Shown one piece after another: positions 11,376-63,975 of a stretch of 64,000 bases of DNA (position 1 is the first letter of the stretch; every line of letters begins with the position of its first letter). The notes below the pieces were generated by a model that was not told the DNA's origin, did not search any database, and saw only the letters and a list, made by a program, of their open reading frames with translations. The stretch spans positions 53,714,025 through 53,778,024 of the forward strand of contig CP136068.1 of assembly GCA_032622095.1 (NCBI GenBank), in the 5' to 3' direction. The translations under genes were made by a program, and so were the position numbers. This DNA is from Siphonodentalium dalli (lineage: Eukaryota > Mollusca > Scaphopoda > Gadilida > Siphonodentaliidae).

Positions 11376-11625
11376 TTCCGAAGACCCATAACTCCGAAGG
11401 TCCGATTCTCCGAAGGTCAGATTCTCCGACGCCCCGATTCTCCGAAAGCCCATAACTCCGAAGTCCCGATTCTCCGAAATCCCATAACTCCGAAGACCCA
11501 TAACTCCGAAAGCCCATAACTCCGAAGGCCTATAACTCCGAACGCCCATAACTCCGAAGGTCTATAACTCCGAAGGGCCGATTCTCCGAAGGTCCGATTC
11601 TCCGAAGGTCCGATTCTCCGAAGAT
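11376..11625 (+). repeat. ~19-bp minisatellite, left arm of foldback
   Basis: Alternating units CCGAAGGTCCGATTCT and CCGAAGGCCCATAACT recur about 13 times. They are the reverse complement of the array at 14370-14657. Confidence 0.9.
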
Positions 11626-12198
11626 CATGTTTTATCGCTTATTAAATAGTGTACAGTCCAGTGGCGGGGTCAATGGGGCCTAGGGAAGACCGCCCCCAAA
11701 AAACATGTCAAATGTCATGTAAACGTCAGGAAATACCTCCTAGGCATTCAAATATTCACAGTGTTCCTGCCCAGGGGAGCCCCCGGACCAACGATTGGGG
11801 GCGACCCCTCCCATGTATGCGCTCCCCAAATCAGGCCTTCGTGATATGCTTTCGGCATATCAAATGCATGATATATCCCCCACATATCCCCCACATATGC
11901 TAATTAATGTGCACCCCTAAATGGGAACCCTGGCACCGCCACTGGTGTGCACCGGGTATATTATAACGAAACGCTGCAAGAATGTCAGAGTAGCCTAACA
12001 TGCACAGGGGCGACAAGTTCTTCCCCGTTCACCCCTGTACATTTTACTCTGGCATCTCATGGGCCAACGTAACGTTATAGTATCTGGTGTATTGTCAGTG
12101 GCGGGCCAGGATTCCCATTTAGGTGGGGGCAGTAGGAAAAGTTTGAATATTTTGATGCCCCATGAACGATTTCCGGGCGTTTACATGACATTGGACAT

Positions 12199-12420
12199 GT
12201 TTTGGTCGGTGCGTATAAAAGCCGAACACAACCGAACACAACCGAACATAACCGAACACAAGTCCAAATAATGGGAAATTACACGAATAATGTTCATAGG
12301 CGTGTGTATTCATGTTCACACTATACTTTGGTGGAGTTCGGGCCAATAATAAGTGTTTTATTCGATATTTTGTAAAACGCGTTTAGTGTTCGGCATAGAA
12401 AAGCCGAACACAAGCTTCTC
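12199..12420 (+). repeat. inner inverted arm of foldback (left)
   Basis: It contains ACCGAACACAACCGAACA units, then a block through GTAAAACGCGTTTAGTGTTC and a GGCATAGAAAAGCCGAACAC hairpin. It is inverted with high identity at 14013-14236, and a third divergent copy lies at 13755-13915. Confidence 0.85.
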
Positions 12421-13212
12421 TCGTGGATTAGTCTATAACGGCTGTCTAGCTAGGTGATAATTAATATCAGACTGATATATGGTCACTAAGCCGAAAGGCT
12501 TTAATTGTTGTTGGTGGCGGTCTCTCACCTATTGTAGTTCAGTGTTTTGACAGTTAGTTGCAATCAGTATTTGATGCCGCCTACTATTATAGAAACAAAA
12601 TGCTTTTGGTGGGCCCCGCCATGAAAGACAACGTACGATTGTAAAAACAATAGTTGAGTGACAAGAAAGTGAGTTCATGGTGCAATATCCGAGAAGTTCT
12701 ATATAAGAATGTGGTATGATATTATTTGGCAAATCACAATCTCAGCAGTATTTGGCATTCTGATCACAGGTCTGAAAATTCTACAATGCCTAATTCCAAA
12801 TTGATTTACCCATGCGAAAAATAATTATTCCTTTCATATCACATTCCTGTCATATCAGGCACATTTTTGAAAACGATCTTAAATTCCTGCATATCAGACT
12901 TTTAAAAAGATACAATACGAAACGCTCTTTATTCGTATTCAGACAATTCATTTCAATTCAATCGGTATTCGATGCATGACATTGTGTTTCTACGATAAGT
13001 TGAACACTGGCTTTATATCGGCTTCCACCATACAGCATGATATACACAAAAGTTAGGCACGCATCAGAGCCATTTCCATCCACTGACTTCAAGGAGAACA
13101 AACTCTGCCCAAATCAGTTCCGCCGAGGACAGAATTTGCCTACCTCTAATATCGGATATTCTTGAATGGCATGCATTGCATATAAGTATATATAGTATAT
13201 TGTATATTATTG

Positions 13213-13550
13213 CGAACAAAGCGTACATTTGGCCAGGAACGGCGAGCGTTGAATAAGAAATTAGCTAAAAACTGGAAAATATCCGACTAACAGGAATCAA
13301 GAACTCGCCGTTCCTGGCCAAGTGTACGCTTTGTTCGCAATATTAGTGTCTAAATGTTGCAATATTAATGAACGGGATATGCTAACCTTTCGAATGGTGT
13401 ATAATATGTATTTTTACATAGCGTAAAACGCGAGAAATGTGAGCTTATATCTCTGTTCTTGATTCCTGTTAGTCGGATTTTTTCCAGTTTTTAGCTAATT
13501 TCTTAGTCAACGCTCGCCGTTCCTGGCCAAATGTACGCTTTGTTCGCAAT
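13213..13550. repeat. nested inverted repeat, ~90-bp arms
   Basis: GCGAACAAAGCGTACATTTG continuing through GGCCAGGAACGGCGAGCGTT (13213-13303) is the reverse complement of 13457-13548. It lies within the centre of the foldback. Confidence 0.85.
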
Positions 13551-13684
13551 ATTAGTGTCTAAATATTGCAATATTAATGTACGGGATATGCTAACCTTTC
13601 GAATGATGTATAATATGTATTGTTACATAGCGTAAAACGCGAGAAATGTGAGCTTATATCTCTGTTCTTGATTCCTGTTAGTCG
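13304..13684 (+). repeat. tandem direct repeat, 209-bp period, 2 copies
   Basis: CTCGCCGTTCCTGGCCAA starts at 13304 and again at 13513. Both copies run through GCGTAAAACGCGAGAAATGT to TGATTCCTGTTAGTCG with about 95% identity. The ORF at 13620 is only a by-product. Confidence 0.85.
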
Positions 13685-13739
13685 AAATAGTCATTCTGTA
13701 ACTCGGAACTCGTTCCTGTTCCTCGTTCCGTTCCTGTTA

Positions 13740-13915
13740 CTCGAAATAGTCAATCCCCAGAAGTTTGTGTTCGGCCTTTCTATGCCGAACACAAACGCGT
13801 TATACAAAACACCCATTATTGAACCAAACTCCACCAAACTTCGTATATAGTAATAGCATGAACGTGAATACATATGCCTATGCACTTTACAATTAATTAA
13901 GGTGGTCTTATATTT
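13740..13915 (-). repeat. third, divergent copy of the foldback inner arm
   Basis: TGTGTTCGGCCTTTCTATGC and the following CAAACTCCACCAAACTTCG block resemble 14013-14130, in the same orientation. Confidence 0.7.
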
Positions 13916-14012
13916 AGTAGACTGTATATAGAGTTATATATCTCAAACGCCAGCTAACGCCACATCTATGCATATCTATGTGTTAATTAATTACCGGTGA
14001 CTGAGTGTCGAA

Positions 14013-14236
14013 CATAAACTTGTGTTCGGCTTTTCTATGCCGAACACTAAACGCGTTTTACAAAATATCGAATAAAACACTTATTATTGGCCCGAACTCC
14101 ACCAAAGTTCGTATAGTAATAGTGTGAACATGAATACACACGCCTATGAACTTTATTCGTCTAATTTCCCATTATTTGGACTTGTGTTCGGTTATGTTCG
14201 GTTGTGTTCGGTTGTGTTCGGCTTTTATGAGCTCCC
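14013..14236 (-). repeat. inner inverted arm of foldback (right)
   Basis: This is the reverse complement of 12199-12420, ending in TGTGTTCGGTTATGTTCGG repeats. Confidence 0.85.
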
Positions 14237-14369
14237 GTTTTGGTAGGGGCCCATATTGTCTGAAATAGCAAGTAGAGGTTTAATGGGGGCAATGGGAATT
14301 TTGGGACCCCTTGGCTTCGCCACTGGACTGTACACTATTTAGTAAACGATAATACCCCGATAAAACAAA

Positions 14370-14657
14370 ATCTTCGGAGAATCGGACCTTCGGAGAATCG
14401 GACATTCGGAGTTATGGGCCGTCGAAGAATCGGGCCTTCGGAGTTATAGGTCTTCGGAGAATCGGCCCTTCGGAGTTATAGGTATTCGGAGTTATAGGTC
14501 TTCGGAGAATCGGCCCTTCGGAGTTATGGGCTTTCGGAGAATCGGATCTTCGGAGTTATGGGCCGTCGGAGAATCGGGTCTTCGGAGTTGTGGGCCGTCG
14601 GAGAATCGGGTCTTCGGAGTTGTGGGCCTTCGTAGTAATAGGTCTTCGGAAAACCGG
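14370..14657 (-). repeat. ~19-bp minisatellite, right arm of foldback
   Basis: CTTCGGAGAATCGGACC and CTTCGGAGTTATGGGCC units alternate about 15 times, the inverted counterpart of the left array. The 102-codon frame on the - strand crossing it is a repeat artefact. Confidence 0.9.
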
Positions 14658-23940: not shown

Positions 23941-25246
23941 ATATGAGAAGATTTAGTTACAAATCAATGACAAAATTAAATTTTTTGACTTTCGATAGCA
24001 AATTTCGCCGCCATTTTGGGATAATGTAGGGACATATAGTTCATTATTATCGGATTAGAATGCGACATCATTTACAGTGGTGCTAGCCGTTACATCAAAG
24101 CATTAATCTGTCTAAATGGAAACAATCTTGTGAACTTTTGCGAAAATTGCCCAATTTTACTACTTTCAGTAGCCAAGTGAACTTAGCGAAAATTGGCCAA
24201 TTTTACTACTTTCGGTGCCAATTTTTCCCTATTGTTGGAAGTGATGGCCCCATTTCTGCTAAAATGGGCACCAGTCATTCATATCTGACATCTAATTAGT
24301 ATTCAGTACACTTGTGTGTTCGATTTGCGGTTATTCTGGACATTAAAATAATAATTGATTTCTTCTTCGAAATTTAGTACATCTATATCGAAGTACAATT
24401 GGGCATTTAAACCAAATTTCTTATAAATGGAAATGATCTGGTGAAATTTAGCGAAAATTTTCCAATTTTACCACTTTCGGTCCCCATTTTGTCCGCCAAT
24501 TTGAATTTTGACAATCGAATTGTACACAAAATGCCATACGTCTGTCATGACAACAATAATTTGTTTATGTCGCATGTTCCTGCCATATGTATAACTTTAA
24601 TTTAAATGCCATTCAAGTATATATTTCATAAGAAACGGACAATCATACATAAAAACCAGAAATAGGACCTTTTTTTTAAATGCTCGAGAAAAATTTCCCC
24701 AAAGCGGATTTCAGCGGATTTTGGGTATGTTGTTCCCCAGATTCTGCCCGACAATATGACACCAAAAGCAACTTGTCAACAATTTGTTCTATGCCCAATG
24801 CTTCAACGACCAGACGATGCCTTCGATCTGGATTCATGCGACATAACTATCACAAATTTCGTTCTTATTTTCATTATTAATAAGTCTCTAATAACGAGAT
24901 TTCGCATATCAAAACCATTGTTATGTAAACATTACTGTTATAGTGGCATTACCGATAAAAGTTCAATTAGTCCAAGATAGCAAAACATGGACGGTAAACA
25001 TTGGAAAAGGTCGAAACAATGAAAATAATATTCTGAAAATCATATTCAGACTAAAACATTTGACAATACTACACGATTAGCAATGTTTATTGATAAATCA
25101 CTATCAGTTTTGTGCACATAACAATGGTTTCAACACACGAAATTGCGTTATTGGAGAACTATCAATAATTAATATAAGAACACAGTTATTATATTTCTCC
25201 ATTTTCTTCTTAGTTGTGATGTTTTAGTAGACCTGTTTTTTCACAT
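23941..25246. other. noncoding interval with GCGAAAATTGGCCAATTTTAC blocks
   Basis: GCGAAAATT, then CCAATTTTACTACTTTCGG, recurs at about 24137, 24188 and 24452, close to GTCCGCCAATTTGAA. The 24680-24980 frames on the + strand have no recognised domain. Confidence 0.4.
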
Positions 25247-26020
25247 TTACCCACTGTGAGTGCATTGGGACCCTTCACATTTACCCACTGTGAGTGCATT
25301 GGGACCCTTCACATTTACCCACTGTGAGTGCATTGGGACCCTTCACATTTACCCACTGTGAGTGCATTGGGACCCTTCACATTTACCACTGTGAGTGCAT
25401 TGGGACCCTTCACATTTACCCACTGTGAGTACATTGGGACCCTTCACATTTACCCACTGTGAGTGCATTGGGACCCTTCACATTTACCCACTGTGAGTGC
25501 ATTGGGACCCTTCACATTTACCCACCGTGAGTGAATTGTGACTCTTCACATTTACCCACCGTGAGTGCATTGGGACCCTTCACATTTACCCACTGTGAGT
25601 TCATTGTGACCCTTCACATTTACCCACTGTGAGTGCATTGGGACCCTTCACATTTACACACTGTGAGTGCATTGGGACCCTTCACATTTACCCACTGTGA
25701 GTGCATTGGAACCCTTCACATTTACCCACTGCGAGTGCATTGGGACCCTTCACATTTACCCACTGTGAGTGCATTGGGACCCTTCACATTTACCCAATGT
25801 GAGTGCATTGGGACCCTTCACATTTACTCACTGTGAGTGCATTGGGACCCTTCACATTTACCCACTGTGAGTGCATTGGAACCCTTCACATTTACCCACT
25901 GTGAGTGCATTGGGACCCTTCACATTTACTCACTGTGAGTGCATTGGGACCCTTCACATTTACCCACTGTGAGTGCATTGGGACCCTTCACATTTACCCA
26001 CCGTGCGTTCATTGGGACCC
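25247..26020. repeat. 34-bp minisatellite, about 23 units
   Basis: The tandem unit is CATTGGGACCCTTCACATTT + ACCCACTGTGAGTG. Most units are identical; a few carry CCGTGAG, GTGAGTT or one-base deletions. Because 34 is not a multiple of 3, all three frames read through the array, giving spurious peptides (HWDPSHL/ALGPFTF/CIGTLHI). Confidence 0.97.
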
Positions 26021-27149
26021 TTTGATAGACGAGATACAAGTGAGTTACAAACGTTTGTCGTACTGTCTGCTAAAAAATAACTTTAGGCCTTGAAGCCACA
26101 AGCATGCTTCGGTTTACGGAAACAGAAGCCAGTTAAATCTCCATTCGGATTATTCGCCTTCAAAATATTCATACATAATTAATAAAATTCGAAGCTATAC
26201 AAGGCTATTTTTCGACAATTTTCAAATGTGATTTTGTTCTCTGGTGACTCTATTGATAGCGTGCCAAGCGTAGTAAGCCAACATAAGCTAATGAAGTTGT
26301 GCTAAGGGAATTGCATAGTTTCAAATTCGAAAATTAGACCCACAATCACTGAAGAGAATTGGTTCGGTTAGACATATGCCCTCCAAGAATGGAGATCCTA
26401 TATTGCAACACCACTATACCTGTTTCATAAACTGTTTCTAGGACTGACGTCTAATGTGCATTATACATGTACACTAACAGTAAATAACTGATAACGACAT
26501 ATGAGCAAAACGACACTTCACTCCACCACACTGGGACATTTTTTTGCTGAGTTGAATTGCGCATATAATATGCATGTATTTACATCGGCATTGCAATTCA
26601 GTCACATGCACATGACCATTTCATTACGTCCAAATTTAATTTGTTTGTAATGATTTAATGATAACTCAATAGCACTACATGTATTATGCACTAAATATAG
26701 AGTTATATAAACATATTTACAGTGCATGTACAGTGACATTTGGCTTCGAATTCGGGGTCCGTTGTGTGTATACTCATCGTCGTTGTCGTCGTCATCATCA
26801 TCATAATCACCGTCATCATCATAGTCGTCGTCATCGTCATCGCAGGCATTAAAAGTTAAAACCCATAACATTTTGCGAGAATCAGAATATAGTATTTCTA
26901 TAGCTAATCAGCTGTTTTTTATGATCGGAGAGTAAAACTTACAATCATGATTCTGATTCTCGTCAGATCTTAAAGATACGGTAAGCGTTGGCGGTTGGTA
27001 TTGCTTTAACAATAGTCACATCCGTTAAAATGGACATATAACAGAAAGAATATTATATTATAGACGAACTTTGTTCTTTGTAAATTGCATGTTATTGTCA
27101 TGTCAGTACTCTGTGTTATGTAAACAAACGCCATGTTATGTAAACAAAC
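26021..27149. other. noncoding interval
   Basis: No gene recognised apart from the microsatellite at 26775-26842. Confidence 0.4.
26775..26842 (+). repeat. CGT/CAT trinucleotide microsatellite
   Basis: GTCGTCATCATCATC-type repeats. Read on the - strand they give a poly-Asp tract within an 89-codon frame, which I regard as an artefact. Confidence 0.9.
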
Positions 27150-27799: not shown

Positions 27800-29328
27800 A
27801 CCTACTAGCTGGTGGACCCGACTTCGTCCGGGCTGTTTCCCCTCTGCTTTTCGGCGAATTGCGCGATTTGACCTTGAATTGTCCAGTTTGAAGGTCAAGG
27901 TCAGGTGTGGTCACGATTTGACCCGTCCAAAACACTGCCCGGATAAAAGTACCCGACAAAAGTACCCGTCGAAATCCGTCTGATTTTACCCGATTTGACC
28001 TTGAATTGATCATTTTGAAGGTCAAGGTCACATCGGGGTCACGATTTCACCCATCCAAAATACTCCATGGACCAAAGTAACCCTTGGTATCAAATTTCGT
28101 CGAAATCCCGTCAAAATTCGCGATTTGACCTTGAATTGACCATTTTGAAGGCCAAGGTCTGGTCGGGGTCACGATTTGACCCGTCCAAATCACCCCCGGA
28201 CAAAAGCTACTCTAGATATCAAATTTCGTCGAAATCCGTCCGTTTTACCCGATTTGACCTTGAATTGACCTTTTTGAAGGTCAAGGCCAGGTCGGGTTCA
28301 CGATTTGACCCGTCCAAAACCATCCCTGGGAAAAATTACCCCTAGGTATATGGGGCGCCATCCCTGCAAATATTCGTTTTCGGAGATATTTCCACGTCAT
28401 TCGGAGATATCTCCTCGGTTTCGAGGAGATATCTCCTTGGAATTGCAATTCCTAGCAGATATCTGCTTGGAATATGGTCCATTATTGAGATATCTCCTTG
28501 GATCCAAGGAGATATCTGCTTGGATTATGGAGATATCTCCTTGGATCCTAGGAGATATCTCCTCACAACTACGAGATATCTGCTTGAAATATTTCCAACG
28601 AGATATCTCCTTCAAACCGAGGAGATATCTCCATAATCCAAGCAGATATCTGCTCGGATTATGGAGATATCTCCTTGAAATAGTTTTCAACGAGATATCT
28701 CCTTGGACCCAATGAGATATCTCCATATTCCAAGCAGATATCTCCTTGAAAATATTCCAAGCAGATATCTGCTTGGATTATGGAGATATCTCCTTGGAAA
28801 ACCGCGGCCATGAAATATTAATGATTTCTCCACATATACGTGTTTTCCCATTTTTTCGAAATACATCCAAGCAGATATCTGCTCGGAATATGGAGATATC
28901 TCCTTGAAATATTTTTCAAGCAGATATATCCATAATCCGAGCAGATATCTGCTTGCATCCAAGGAGATATCTCCTTGAACATATTTCAAGGAGATATCTC
29001 CATAATGCGAGCAGATATCTGCTCGCATTATGGATATATCTCCTCGGTTTCAAGGAGATATCTCCTTGAAAATATTTCCGAGGAGATATCTCCATATTCC
29101 AAGCAGATATCTCCTTGAAACCGAGGAGATATCTCCATAATGCGAGCAGATATCTGCTTGGATCCAAGGAGATATCTCCGAAAACGAATATTTGCAGGGA
29201 TGGCGCCCCATATAGGTATCAAATTTCGTCAAAATCCGTCGGGCAGTTTTCCCGGCCATAGCTAACACACACACAGACAGACAGACAGACACACAGACAC
29301 ACAGAAGTCCCAAAATATATAGTAGATA
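27800..29328 (+). mobile_element. RTE-like 3' tail or SINE with ~129-bp internal modules
   Basis: It starts CTAGCTGGTGGACCCGACTT CGTCCGGG, a head common to RTE-like or SINE repeats in many invertebrates. Four modules of ~129 bp follow (CGATTTGACCTTGAATTG at 27864, 27991, 28121 and 28250), each with GGTCAAGGTCA-type motifs and CAAATTTCGTCGAAATCC. The 3' end is GACAGACAGACAGACACAC followed by AAATATATAGTAGATA. A complete foldback element (28349-29212) is inserted in the fifth module. No coding capacity was seen. Confidence 0.65.
28349..29212. mobile_element. 864-bp foldback element built from AGATATCT palindromes
   Basis: Perfect ~40-bp inverted termini (TATGGGGCGCCATCCCTGCA plus AATATTCGTTTTCGGAGATAT) enclose about thirty copies of GGAGATATCTCC or GCAGATATCTGC, spaced 20-30 bp and joined by TTGGATCCAA, TTGGATTATG, TTGAAATATTT-type linkers. 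The flanking hexamer TAGGTA is duplicated (28343-28348 and 29213-29218), and removing one copy plus the element restores the module sequence seen at 28088 and 28217. The insertion is therefore clean and recent. Reading frames here (EISPWIQ, RRYLLG repeats) are artefacts of the palindromes. Confidence 0.9.
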
Positions 29329-59765: not shown

Positions 59766-61388
59766 TAATCGGTTTCTGATTTTGCGCAACGGGTTTCCCA
59801 CAGGACTCCCGCCAAATGTCACGTAAACGATCATCGTTTGGAAATGAATACAGCATTATACCTAACCGAGAGTCACTAGACCGGCCACAGCCGATAACAC
59901 TGCATTTATATGGCATTGTCACGAATGAATGATTGTAAATACGGGAATCTGGATTGCTTTATTCTTTGATCCAATTAAATAACATGAATAGATATTGAGA
60001 AAACGATTTTATATACATAAGATGGACAGAATAACGAAAAGTATTTATATACAATATATACAGTGTGACAGATATACAACATCGCGAACACGCACCCGAA
60101 TAATGTTCACTTGCCGGCTCGTGTTTTCATAAGCTTTATTTTTGACACGACAGTGTTATCTACCCCGCTCAATCGGCCTTCTATAGTTTTTGTCAAAAAA
60201 TTACCTTTCCAAACAGCACTTAAGATAAATCACAAGTGAAGATAACTCACCGTGCGATGACAATTCACCATGTGTACACAATGCTATTGATATGCCCCGC
60301 AGTAATTACATTACACTATCGCGCTGATAATTAACTCCGACTCCGATTCCCTGTTTTTAAATTAGTTTACCTCGCTTGACGTCATGCGAGGTTTTGCGAC
60401 GGAGATAGCCGACAACCGATGGTGGTATTATTTATTTATTTCTCGGCTTATTTATTACGCGATTTTTATGGGACTTGGATCATTGTGATCACAATAGGGG
60501 TGGCTTTCCGATGGAGTTTTGTTGTTTCATGAGGATAGTAATCCTTTAAACCAAACTCGGTTAGGCAATATTCCTCATGGGGAGTGGTGTCGCGGTGATC
60601 GCATGGTATCCATATGGTCGTGGTCCGGTTTTACCACTTGTTTGTCCGTCTGTCCGTCCGTCCGTCTGTCTGTAGACACTTTACGCATGGTGCTATAACT
60701 GACCTCTTTTCACGCTGATCGGTGCCAAATGTTGTGTATGCATTTCTCCGCACTAAATACAGATCGAAATCCGATATATTTTAAAGGATTATGGCCCATT
60801 GCCATTGAAATCATGCATGCTTCGACAATTCACCCATTTTTCAGCTGTTAGGTTTCATATACTTGGTCTGAGTTCTCAACGCACGACTATAGATCGAGTT
60901 CGATTTTGGTTTGCTCCGATATTCTTCATGCCGTTCTGCCCCTTTGATTATTTTCTTCCTGTCTAACCATATATCTTAGTTGCATAGTATGCACTGTCCC
61001 GGTAGTCTGTTATAAAACCGGTTTACAATGCCATGCAGTTTTTCCCCACATGTGTGTTGGCCATCATATGCGATATCATTGAGGGGAAGGTTTCTGCTAT
61101 CATTTTTATACCCATGGTTATTTCCATTGCAGCGTAGAGGCCTAACCTGGTTTTACTGTTTAGTAGCATTACTGTTGGTGGTTAATGCAGTGATTGTGTT
61201 AAGTAGATGGTTGGTTGCTTCGGCTACCCTAGTTGGTGTGGGCGCTCGCCATGATGTAACGGTGGGTTTTGGTGCATCATACGGTGGTCTCCGGGCTATA
61301 ACGGTCGTCATCCGGTACGGCGTGCTGGCCGGGGCGTCGGTTACGCCTCTTTTTATGACCTTAGTACTTGTTTTCTCCTTTTTTTCAG
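59766..61388. other. 5' flank of the recombinase element
   Basis: GTCCGTCTGTCCGTCCGTCC repeats at 60644-60672 mark an RTE-like (ACAG)n tail in reverse or a simple repeat. TTGACGTCATGCGAGG at 60377 is CRE-like. Just before 61389, TGTTTTCTCCTTTTTTTCAG is a textbook 3' splice site, so the coding exon may begin after an intron. The frame at 61028-61609 crosses that junction and is not favoured. Confidence 0.4.
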
Positions 61389-62905
61389 ATGCCAAAAGCG
61401 ACAGCAATGACCTGACACCGATTAGTACCCGACGTCCCGGTGGAAGTGGTTGGGCCATCGCGGGGGACCAGGCATGCATTACCAGCCGGCGTCCCTGCCC
61501 GTTCGAAGGGGAGGCCCGCCAGGAGTGGTACATATTCTACGGCCGCGCCTTCAATTGTTCGTCCCGTACGGCCGCGGGTCACGCGTGTGCCTGGCAGTGT
61601 GCGTCATAGGTCGGTGCGGTCGACTACAGCGTCATCGGTTGGTGCGCGATCGTCGTGTGGTCGGGTGCGTGCTGTGGTCATGTCCGAGGAGGTTGCAGCG
61701 GTCGCTGCTTCGGCCGATATTCGCTGGGAAGACGAGCAGTGTGTTTTCCGGGTCAGTATAGCGGGCCTCTCCTCTCAATCCCGTTAGTGCTTTCTGCAGA
61801 GGACAAGGCGCGTCTGGCTCCAAAGTTGCAGGACGCATGGCTGGGACTTGGTGGCATCGTCTCCCGTTCAGGGTGCCGCGGTCCCTCGTCGGCATTAGGA
61901 CAGCCACAGACTTACGCTACTGTGGCTTCTGATCTCGATATTCCACCGGCTGGCCCCATGGGCCGACCCGGAACAGACTCCGTTGCCTGCGTCGCTGACC
62001 ATCGACACCTTGTGGGAACTATGACTCGGTTACTCGATGCTGCCCTTACTTGTTCATCTCGGCAGTATACGCCCGAAAGGGTTTTTTTTGTTCAGTTTGC
62101 TTCCCGCTTTAACGTCCGTCCATATCCGCCCGTTAACGTGAGCACGCTGGGGCTCTTTCTCGCACATCTTTTCCAGATCGGGTATAGCACCGCCACGGTG
62201 CGTAGTGTTTTGTCGGTCATCGCATATCAGCACAATATTCAGGGCTTAGCGACTCCCACTACACATTTACGGATTCACAAAATGCTCGCGGGCTTTCAAC
62301 GCTTGCGCCCGAGCGGCGACCCGCGCCGACCAATTACTGTTCCCATTTTACACTCTATGATCGCTGTATTGCCCTGTTGCGTGGCATCACACACGGAATT
62401 GTCCTTTTACGCGCACTATTCGTATTCGCGTTCTACGCGCTGGCCCGTATTGGCGAAATGTGCACTTCACTCTCTGCCCCTCATCTAACTGTCCTGCTCG
62501 TTTCCGATGTCTCGGTCACGCCCGCCTCCATCGACATCTGCTTCCGGCATGTCAAGCACGGAGTTAATAGATTGCCCCAAGTGGTCGCTATTGGCAAGTT
62601 AGAGGGTCCCACCTTTTGTCCGCATACCCATTTCCGTCTTCACTAAACGTCGCGTTTCGACGGCGGGCCCCTTCTTCTGCTCACCGGACGGTCGGGGCAT
62701 AACACGGGCGCATTTCAATGCCGTTCTCCGGAGAGTGTTGTCAATTCTGCGATTGGATGACCGGGATTTCAAGTCTCACTCCTTTCGGATAGGCGGGGCA
62801 TGCTTGGCAGCATCGCGGGGTTACTCCGATGAACAAATCCGGATGCTCGGGCGCTGGACATCCGATGCGTTTCGCAAGTACATCCGTCCTCCGCCGTTGT
62901 CATAA
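61389..62905 (+). pseudogene. tyrosine recombinase of a Crypton/DIRS-type element, frameshifted
   Basis: The recombinase core runs from about 62020 to the stop TAA at 62903. The SAM-like N-terminal part (RVFFVQFASRFNV, NVSTLGLFLAHLFQIGYSTA TVRSVLS, RRPITVPILHSM) is in the frame of 62020-62380. The first catalytic Arg (FAFYALARIGEM) and the beta-hairpin (VSVTPASIDICFRHVKHG) are in the next frame, 62380-62640. The HxxR box (SHSFRIGGACLA), the Trp (MLGRWTSD) and the Tyr (FRKYIRPP, near 62880) return to the first frame. Two compensating frameshifts (about 62380 and 62635) thus break an otherwise complete R-H-R-W-Y enzyme. The upstream part (61440-61787 frame) is basic, Arg/Pro/Ser-rich with GRPARSG, an AT-hook-like word. 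Such enzymes integrate circular DNA. No reverse transcriptase was seen, which favours a Crypton-like element, but a DIRS fragment cannot be excluded. Confidence 0.8.
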
Positions 62906-63309
62906 CAAGAGTTCCGCGATTGCCCGTTTCCGTTCGTGCGTCTTGCCACCCTCGTATATCAGTCACAGCGGCCGAGCGGGCACCCTTCCATCAATGCCGG
63001 GCGTCGTTATCTGCAGTTCCGTTTGCCGACTCGACGGGCACGCACAGTCAGATTTCCGCAACTGGGAGGGGTTTGGCATGGGTTATCCGGCCTGTAAGTC
63101 GTGTCGCAGCACGCGTGGGGGATCTCGCTGCCCGGTCTCTCCCTGTCCTTTGTTTTCATGTTTTCGGACCCCCCCCCCCTTATTTTCTGTTTCAAGCAGG
63201 GCCCGAGCGTTGTCCGCGTATGCGCTACCCAGTTTACATGTACTTCATGTCCCGGTTTCCGTTTCATGTCCGACCGGCATCCGCCCCCTGCCTCTGCTGG
63301 TGGTGCGCA
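62906..63309. other. GC-rich 3' flank of the recombinase
   Basis: Still GC- and CpG-rich, including C11 at 63169-63179. Long frames on both strands (up to 185 codons) result from the composition and show no domain. Confidence 0.5.
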
Positions 63310-63975
63310 ATGGTTGCACTGGTTGCACTGTGCTAGTGATGGTTTTTTGGTTGTTAATTGTAGCGCCGGTTTCACTGTTCCAGTGATGGTTTGTTTTGGT
63401 GGTTAATATTTAATTTTTTTAAGCGCTCATCAGTCTCTGGTGGCGCCGGTTTCACTGTTCCCCAGTGATGGTTTGTGTTTTCTTTTTCACTGTTACAGTG
63501 ATAGTTTTTTTTTGGTTATTCTTCACTATTGTTTTTTTGGTGATTCACTTTTATAGTGATGGTTATTTGGTTGCGCTCACCAGTCTATGGTAGCGCTGGT
63601 TTCACTGTTACAGTGATGGTTTTTTGGTGGTTAATATTTTTTTTTTTTTAGCGCTCATCAGTCTCTGGTAGCGCCGGTTTCACTGTTTCAGTGACGGTTT
63701 TTTGGTGGTTAATATTTATTTTTTTCAGCGCTCATCAGTCTCTGGTAGCGCCGGTTTCACTGTTCCAGTGATGGTTTGTGTTTTCTTTTTCGCTGTTACA
63801 GTGATAGTTTTTTTTTGGTTATTCTTCACTATTGGTTTTTTGGTTATTTTTTTTTCCGCGCTCATCAGTCTCTGGTAGCGCCGGTTTCACTTTTATAGTG
63901 ACTATTTTTGGTGTTTTTTTTTCAGCGCTAATCAGTCTCTGGGGTTGCAGTGGGTTTTTCTCATTTCCGTAATTT
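63310..63975. repeat. array of hairpin-forming repeats downstream of the recombinase
   Basis: GCGCTCATCAGTCTCTGGTAGCGC (a 5-bp GCGCT/AGCGC stem) recurs at 63423, 63573, 63651, 63728, 63858 and 63925. It alternates with TCACTGTTACAGTGA or variants, a near-perfect palindrome, linked by T-rich and TTTGGTGGTTAATA stretches. Unit lengths are about 77 and 130-150 bp. The array runs to the window end. Confidence 0.85.

Follow-up and report, generated by a model that had tools for sequence, protein, structure and literature searches.

The window, which is the whole 64-kb stretch of DNA analysed, contains an 864-bp foldback element with a 6-bp duplication at its edges. The features of the locus, in window coordinates, were as follows.

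27864..28320, + strand: tandem repeat with a 129-bp unit next to the insertion, belonging to the target and not to the element
28343..28348, + strand: target-site duplication TAGGTA, left copy, from the sequence
28349..29212, + strand: complete non-autonomous foldback element of family 1, 864 bp, edges fixed by the 6-bp duplications
28349..28389, + strand: left terminal inverted repeat, 41 bp and perfect, beginning TATGGGGCGCCATCCCTGCAAATATTCG, from the sequence and the inverted-repeat match
28382..28799, no strand: left palindrome array, 17 exact AGATATCT and degenerate units, most at distances of 21-22 or 27-28 bp
28800..28868, no strand: central core without repeats that parts the two arrays, the longest stretch free of palindromes
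28869..29183, no strand: right palindrome array, 12 exact AGATATCT and degenerate units
29172..29212, - strand: right terminal inverted repeat, from the sequence and the inverted-repeat match
29213..29218, + strand: target-site duplication TAGGTA, right copy, from the sequence

The initial annotation had placed the element at 28349-29212 between TAGGTA direct repeats, and both the coordinates and the repeats proved exact. The inverted ends, which had been described as perfect over about 40 bp, are perfect over the first 41 element bases and match at 98% over 47 nt. About thirty palindromes had been counted, and this agrees with the 29 exact copies of AGATATCT in the element (30 in the whole window; shuffles gave a mean of 1.2 and a maximum of 5), with the minor correction that the units are of two main kinds, GGAGATATCTCC (14/29) and GCAGATATCTGC (7/29), together with mixed units (8/29). 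Two bases out from the core, the two sides of the palindrome are complementary in 25 of the 29 units, with 18 G-C, 7 C-G and 4 unpaired (Fisher p 0.0007). Where the spacer TTGGATCCAA is present it is itself palindromic, and that stretch therefore alternates 11-base half-units in opposite orientation. Folding the element as single-stranded DNA gave -328.8 kcal/mol, compared with -98.2 (sd 4.2) in 20 shuffles (z = -55), and the self-pairing spans nearly the full length, in agreement with the earlier proposal that either strand could fold at many scales. The core of about 70 bp that parts the left array from the right contains no palindromes, and the reverse complement of the right arm aligned with the left arm unit by unit, 259 of 334 aligned positions (77.5%) being equal.

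The insertion sits at the edge of the 129-bp tandem repeat. Removal of the element and one TAGGTA gives the empty site CCCC-TAGGTA-TCAAATTTCGTC, which resembles the adjoining repeat, one unit of which is CTCTAGATATCAAATTTCGTC; the empty site could thus be reconstructed as had been claimed. The 64-kb window gave no tRNA or Rfam match. Elsewhere in the window, positions 11377-14657 hold mirrored array pairs, with four copies of CCGAACACAA at 12222-12261 and four of TTGTGTTCGG at 14182-14221, outside which lie 16-bp CCGAAGG-type arrays at 11377-11623 and 14372-14657; the arrangement may represent a second foldback element whose arms contain tandem repeats. A tandem repeat with a 34-bp unit (23 copies, 95% matches) occupies 25240-26022, and 61016-63386 is GC-richer and contains several long open frames, some of them overlapping.

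The genome (2.23 Gb in nine long contigs) was searched with the 26-base element end at up to three mismatches, which gave 704 sites (341 forward and 363 reverse) and 0 for the reversed control. In a similarity search 40 of 493 candidates were scored, comprising the window copy and 39 others at 91-96% identity. Forty-nine distinct two-ended elements were read, L018 twice, and with L067 assigned to another family they gave 48 members of family 1. When each set of duplicated host sequence was represented by one member, and L067 and the repeat reading of L018 were left out, the number of independent insertions was 31, of which 24 had an exact 6-bp duplication and 27 a duplication with at most one mismatch; none of these 27 matched exactly at 7 to 11 bp. 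Clean duplications were absent from L019, L031, L036 and L055, the last having a 6-bp repeat shifted by one base. The initial annotation was to be refuted if the genome had no further copies sharing these ends and flanked by a hexamer duplication; such copies do exist. The sequence around the duplication showed only weak symmetric preferences in the 27 insertions, and the targets were varied. The 26 family-1 copies of 820-950 bp, picked by length from the 49, carried 1.1-5.5% substitutions relative to the majority sequence, indicating recent spread. The exact element end had no match in viral contigs. A mobile family with these ends is practically certain, and the window element is one copy of a young, non-autonomous (MITE-like), protein-less foldback DNA transposon.

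The ends of the element read TATGGGG...CCCCATA. FB of Drosophila/MuDR has a 9-bp target duplication and was rejected, as the duplication here is 6 bp with no longer exact match in the 7 to 11 bp range. IS481EU was likewise rejected, since its duplications are about 4, 15 or 25 bp and its ends TNT..AYA in the part of PMC10045372 available, compared with the 6-bp duplication and TATGG...CCATA ends seen here. IS3EU/GingerRoot elements have 6-bp target duplications and TA..TA ends, and fungal IS3EU families have TAYGG..CCRTA ends and terminal inverted repeats of over 30 bp, as given in the available portions of PMC10045372 and PMC12730594. Both end signatures, the duplication length and the repeat length are all found in the window element, and its TATGG...CCATA ends and 6-bp duplications therefore fit this superfamily; on these sequence features it is probably of IS3EU/GingerRoot type. 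The initial remark that no named family has this composition is amended accordingly at the superfamily level, where the duplications and TA..TA ends agree with published IS3EU.

In length the 48 family-1 elements range from 352 to 1,482 bp, and they contain 12 to 42 exact AGATATCT, so that the unit number, which was to be compared among copies, varies widely. Distances between neighbouring palindromes are quantised: 1,012 of 1,454 lie at 21-22 bp (553 at 21 bp and 459 at 22 bp) and 250 at 27-28 bp (133 and 117), with a further 42 at 30 bp and 47 at 31 bp, in a table that takes in L067 and both readings of L018. Strict helical phasing does not accommodate the spacings of 27-28 and 30-31 bp. Within family 1 the palindromes were not better conserved than the spacers, substitutions amounting to 263/10,052 (2.6%) in the 12-base palindromes and 166/8,944 (1.9%) in the spacers. 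Both sides of a palindrome pair were changed in 10 cases, compared with 4.7 by chance, and 3 of the changes were compensatory; changes on a single side numbered 261. This pattern is as expected from the decay of dead copies and is neutral on any role of the palindromes before insertion. The central core was the most changed part (110/1,850, 5.9%), compared with 33/1,682 (2.0%) in the terminal inverted repeat. The core may be less well preserved than the arrays and ends, or take less part in exchange among copies, but a misalignment of the core may also be the cause.

At least three further families, grouped by eye, have the tip TATGGGGCGCCAT in common with family 1 but differ from it in their arrays (GTGATATCAC, GGATATCC and AGATATCTCT units), in which GATATC recurs mostly every 20-22 bp. 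A tip pattern that accepts any base but G at position 18 matched 40 places (control 0) and also catches family-1 variants. The units of family 2 (L065, L066, L067) are AGATATCTCTAAATCACTAG-like and mostly follow one another at 21-22 bp, and its 6-bp duplication is exact in L065 and has one mismatch in L066 and L067. Family 3 (L068, L069, L074, each known from a single end) has GATATC[CA]ATAAT-like units with 10 of 17 listed steps at 21-22 bp and the rest irregular. Family 4 (L071-L073) has GTGATATCAC-like units whose 11 steps comprise nine at 20-22, one at 28 and one at 61 bp, and 560 of its ends were found when up to three mismatches were allowed (control 0). Between families, the bases on either side of the core differ in complementary ways (GGA/TCC, GT/AC, ATG/CAT). 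A likely fifth family is given by the array at C1:1375918-1376351, which lies behind a different tip, TATGGGCAGCCA, and has GATATCTCTAATTCATTTGGA-like units at 21 bp (L075 = G000:C1:1375790-1375925); its right end was not recognised. Three tip-bearing loci fit none of the families: L062 keeps only 20 bases of the family-1 end, L063 resembles a fusion of two such ends with no array between them, and L064 has one GGATATCC followed by unrelated sequence.

Over the whole genome, 46,034 pairs of GATATC lie 14-30 bp apart, compared with 21,753 for the reversed-pattern control, and 24,159 of them are separated by 20-22 bp (control 1,228). At 23-25 bp the pairs number 3,635 and the control 13,277, many of the listed places being a 23-bp satellite; the high control indicates that periodic hexamers at other steps exist in this genome without this biology. 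Units of the satellite such as GATATCTAAAATCGAGACAGATG were read in direct arrangement from G000:C1:6890560 onward, and further places were listed from G000:C1:6905505 and 7830548 onward. Family 1 is estimated to give roughly 5,900 of the 24,159 pairs (about 350 copies at 16.7 pairs each, from 801 pairs at 21-22 bp in 48 elements), so that most of the 20-22 bp class would sit in other arrays.

An autonomous partner creating 6-bp duplications, which the initial annotation had proposed to seek, was not identified. The IS481 profile gave 67 scored matches among 4,423 candidates over the genome, none above the curated cut-off and 32 of them in frames of more than 1,000 aa, as in LTR elements; the rve_3 profile gave 30 matches among the best 150 scored. 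The nearest of these matches lay 65.8 kb from any of 208 end positions (40 from the pattern excluding G at position 18, 100 of family 4 and 68 from the search with the 26-base end), with none within 65 kb, but both lists are partial, and as about 100 places were listed for each of the searches that found 704 and 560 ends, this absence is weak evidence. A tip pattern that does not allow the GG found in the GGAGATAT interior matched 83 places (46 forward and 37 reverse; control 5 and 0). No transposase was seen in 30 loci (L029-L058) and 12 stretches (L059-L070, some repeated) from this list, which were mostly family-1 copies with changed interiors, some members of families 2-4 and some single ends. 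Ten chosen open frames were compared with Pfam, and matches were found in three, a reverse transcriptase in L065 and LTR-retrotransposon domains in two frames of L059, and in none of the other seven. The frames in L059 (1534-6288, minus strand) contain the protease, reverse transcriptase, RNase H and integrase domains of an LTR retrotransposon and lie about 2.4 kb from a family-1 copy. The best candidate for an autonomous partner is a pair of facing family-4 ends 7,372 bp apart (G000:C3:66261916-66269287), the longest facing pair among the 100 places listed. Shorter facing pairs lie at C2:82289547-82293439 (3,893 bp) and C4:60750268-60752030 (1,763 bp).

Taken together, the best explanation of the element is an IS3EU-type foldback MITE that contains binding arrays and changes in length by slippage, which as a whole is given somewhat better than an even chance. 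An integrase-like IS3EU transposase made elsewhere would recognise the TATGG...CCATA ends and paste the element into its target with a 6-bp stagger. A less certain step is that the GATATC palindromes, at intervals of about two helical turns, may serve as a series of binding sites for a protein that acts as a dimer, probably a domain of this transposase or a host factor. Slippage and unequal exchange between near-identical units would generate the arrays and alter their length again and again, and long-array copies would be favoured because they load the protein well. A protein-loading array is suggested because the GATATC core and its step recur in several families while the flanks of the core differ complementarily; from the sequence, a role as binding arrays falls a little below an even chance. 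A transposase or host-factor role had been offered for the palindromes at the outset, with hairpin slippage as the other option. The first found no more than indirect support, in the recurrence of GATATC at a 20-22 bp step across families, and is the better bet for the persistence of the palindromes; the second held for changes of unit number and is the better bet for those. A more specific version, which we regard as less likely than not, is that the genome contains a clan of IS3EU-type elements built round a phased GATATC scaffold on one face of the helix, along which a dimeric transposase domain or host protein loads side by side. It is similarly doubtful, though possible, that each family rewrote its core flanks complementarily and that long arrays out-compete short ones; complementary rewriting is what would be expected if the array protein and its sites co-evolve. 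The irregular steps of family 3 count against a phased array.

The change of array length could be followed after insertion. Five sets of elements have shared flanks across the insertion point, and each set is therefore most likely derived from one insertion that was copied with its surroundings. Array lengths differ within four of the five sets. The seven members of set A, with flanks 90-98% identical over 594-599 bp, are 360, 458, 726, 748, 876, 919 and 920 bp long; set B contains six elements of 669 to 947 bp, some of them linked over just 48-67 bp, set C four elements of 732 to 826 bp, and set D two of equal length. The two elements of set E (L029 and L030) lie 6 kb apart with flanks identical over 468 bp and differ by one 22-bp unit. 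Twelve pairwise comparisons gave 24 gaps of at least 10 bp, of which 12 have 8-25 bp of exact homology at the junction and are 22, 43, 44, 70 or 114 bp in size; as some gaps are common by descent, these 12 are not independent. The remaining 12 have 0-5 bp of exact homology. The natural reading is slippage or unequal exchange between units, often of whole units. In L012, L013, L020, L024, L025, L027 and L028, one family-1 insertion with the duplication TTCACC was copied with its host repeat at least seven times.

These observations also bear on the strongest alternative, in which the array is a functionless mutational by-product: hairpin slippage and template switching would correct the palindromes to perfection and multiply the units, and the transposon would simply carry the result. 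The length differences in four sets, the range of 360 to 920 bp in set A, the homology-flanked gaps and the single-unit difference in set E are all in keeping with it, as is the stem-loop copying model for tandem repeats in MITEs (Izsvak et al., in the description given in the accessible part of PMC8268682). However, half of the gaps have little junction homology and some are shared by descent, and slippage accounts for the number of units but not for the recurrence of GATATC and a 20-22 bp step where the other array bases differ. A by-product is a serious possibility, but one that we doubt.

An alternative that is unlikely is inheritance of the arrays from one ancestral IS3EU MITE with a GATATCCATAATTCGAATTATG-like 22-bp double palindrome, too little time having passed for the core to be lost. 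By eye, families 2, 3 and 4 have TAATTC-like spacer bases and a CTATTTAT-like stretch after the tip in common, and common descent could by itself account for arrays being shared between families. Against this, the common family-1 spacers TTGGATCCAA and ATAATCCAA look unlike those of families 3 and 4, although the core and step are the same.

It is very improbable that the fold itself is the function, with the element selected for, or tolerated, because it yields long hairpin RNA (siRNA or piRNA). The near full-length self-pairing at z = -55 and the unit-by-unit alignment of the arms at 77.5% speak for it, but the 3 compensatory changes stand against 261 single-side changes inside palindromes, and the arms differ by 22% when copies are just 1-5.5% from the majority. 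The placement in another superfamily with 6-bp duplications, Dada or hAT6, can hardly be sustained: hAT ends begin with CA and not with TATGG as here, and Dada, although it too makes 6-bp duplications, is described as lacking terminal inverted repeats and as targeting small RNA genes, whereas the present element has 41-bp ends, varied targets, an insertion beside a 129-bp tandem repeat and a window free of Rfam and tRNA matches. For hAT6, 6-bp duplications are known from the title of a work cited in the available text of PMC12730594.

Foldback arms filled with repeats are known, and binding arrays, inhibition and mutational junk are the options for explaining them. In this genome one hexamer at one spacing recurs in several families whose other array bases differ, two of these families having over 500 ends apiece, and duplicated insertions record the change of the arrays, which makes the choice between a transposase-binding array and a slippage by-product testable. 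Of the known systems, piggyBac targets TTAA and belongs to a different superfamily. The parallel with piggyBac and piggyBat is one of working, since in piggyBac-type transposases two cysteine-rich domains of a dimer bind palindromes inside the ends (PMC11707139, in the portion available); there, however, the palindromes are three and imperfect, and here there are about thirty. Galileo, a foldback-like element of the P superfamily, resembles the present element in its dynamic long arms with internal tandem repeats, which are about 140 bp in D. willistoni (from the accessible text of PMC4168063) and in D. buzzatii reportedly carry extra sites for the transposase (a citation in the available part of PMC4079207), but it differs in its P-type transposase, 7-8 bp duplications and longer repeats. 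Long inverted arms of tandem repeats, the feature of the Tetris-like foldback class, are present here. Tetris of Drosophila virilis is itself non-autonomous, with units of about 220 bp in its inverted arms, a repeat number that differs between two near-identical alleles and, in the portion of PMC4079207 available, no autonomous partner found. The likeness thus extends to a non-autonomous foldback structure, repeat-filled arms, variable repeat number and a partner not found, whereas the units here are 21-22 bp, are each a palindrome and are accompanied by a 6-bp duplication. With IS3EU/GingerRoot the element shares 6-bp duplications, TA..TA ends and long terminal inverted repeats, but it has no coding capacity and nearly its whole body is a palindrome array, which the available portions of the IS3EU literature do not describe. 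The GGAGATATCTCC string occurred in no paper searched; four strings from the tip and units matched 22 papers, and the 20 of these that were listed all matched GTGATATCAC and had unrelated titles. Among the papers listed by further literature searches, title and opening of the abstract revealed no element of such a kind, and in one of these listings none of the ten papers contained GATATC. An architecture of almost nothing but regularly spaced palindromes, present in several families, was therefore not found in the literature searched. In terms of transposon biology the element is a new family of a known kind, a foldback MITE and probably IS3EU, and would give this little-studied superfamily a large example.
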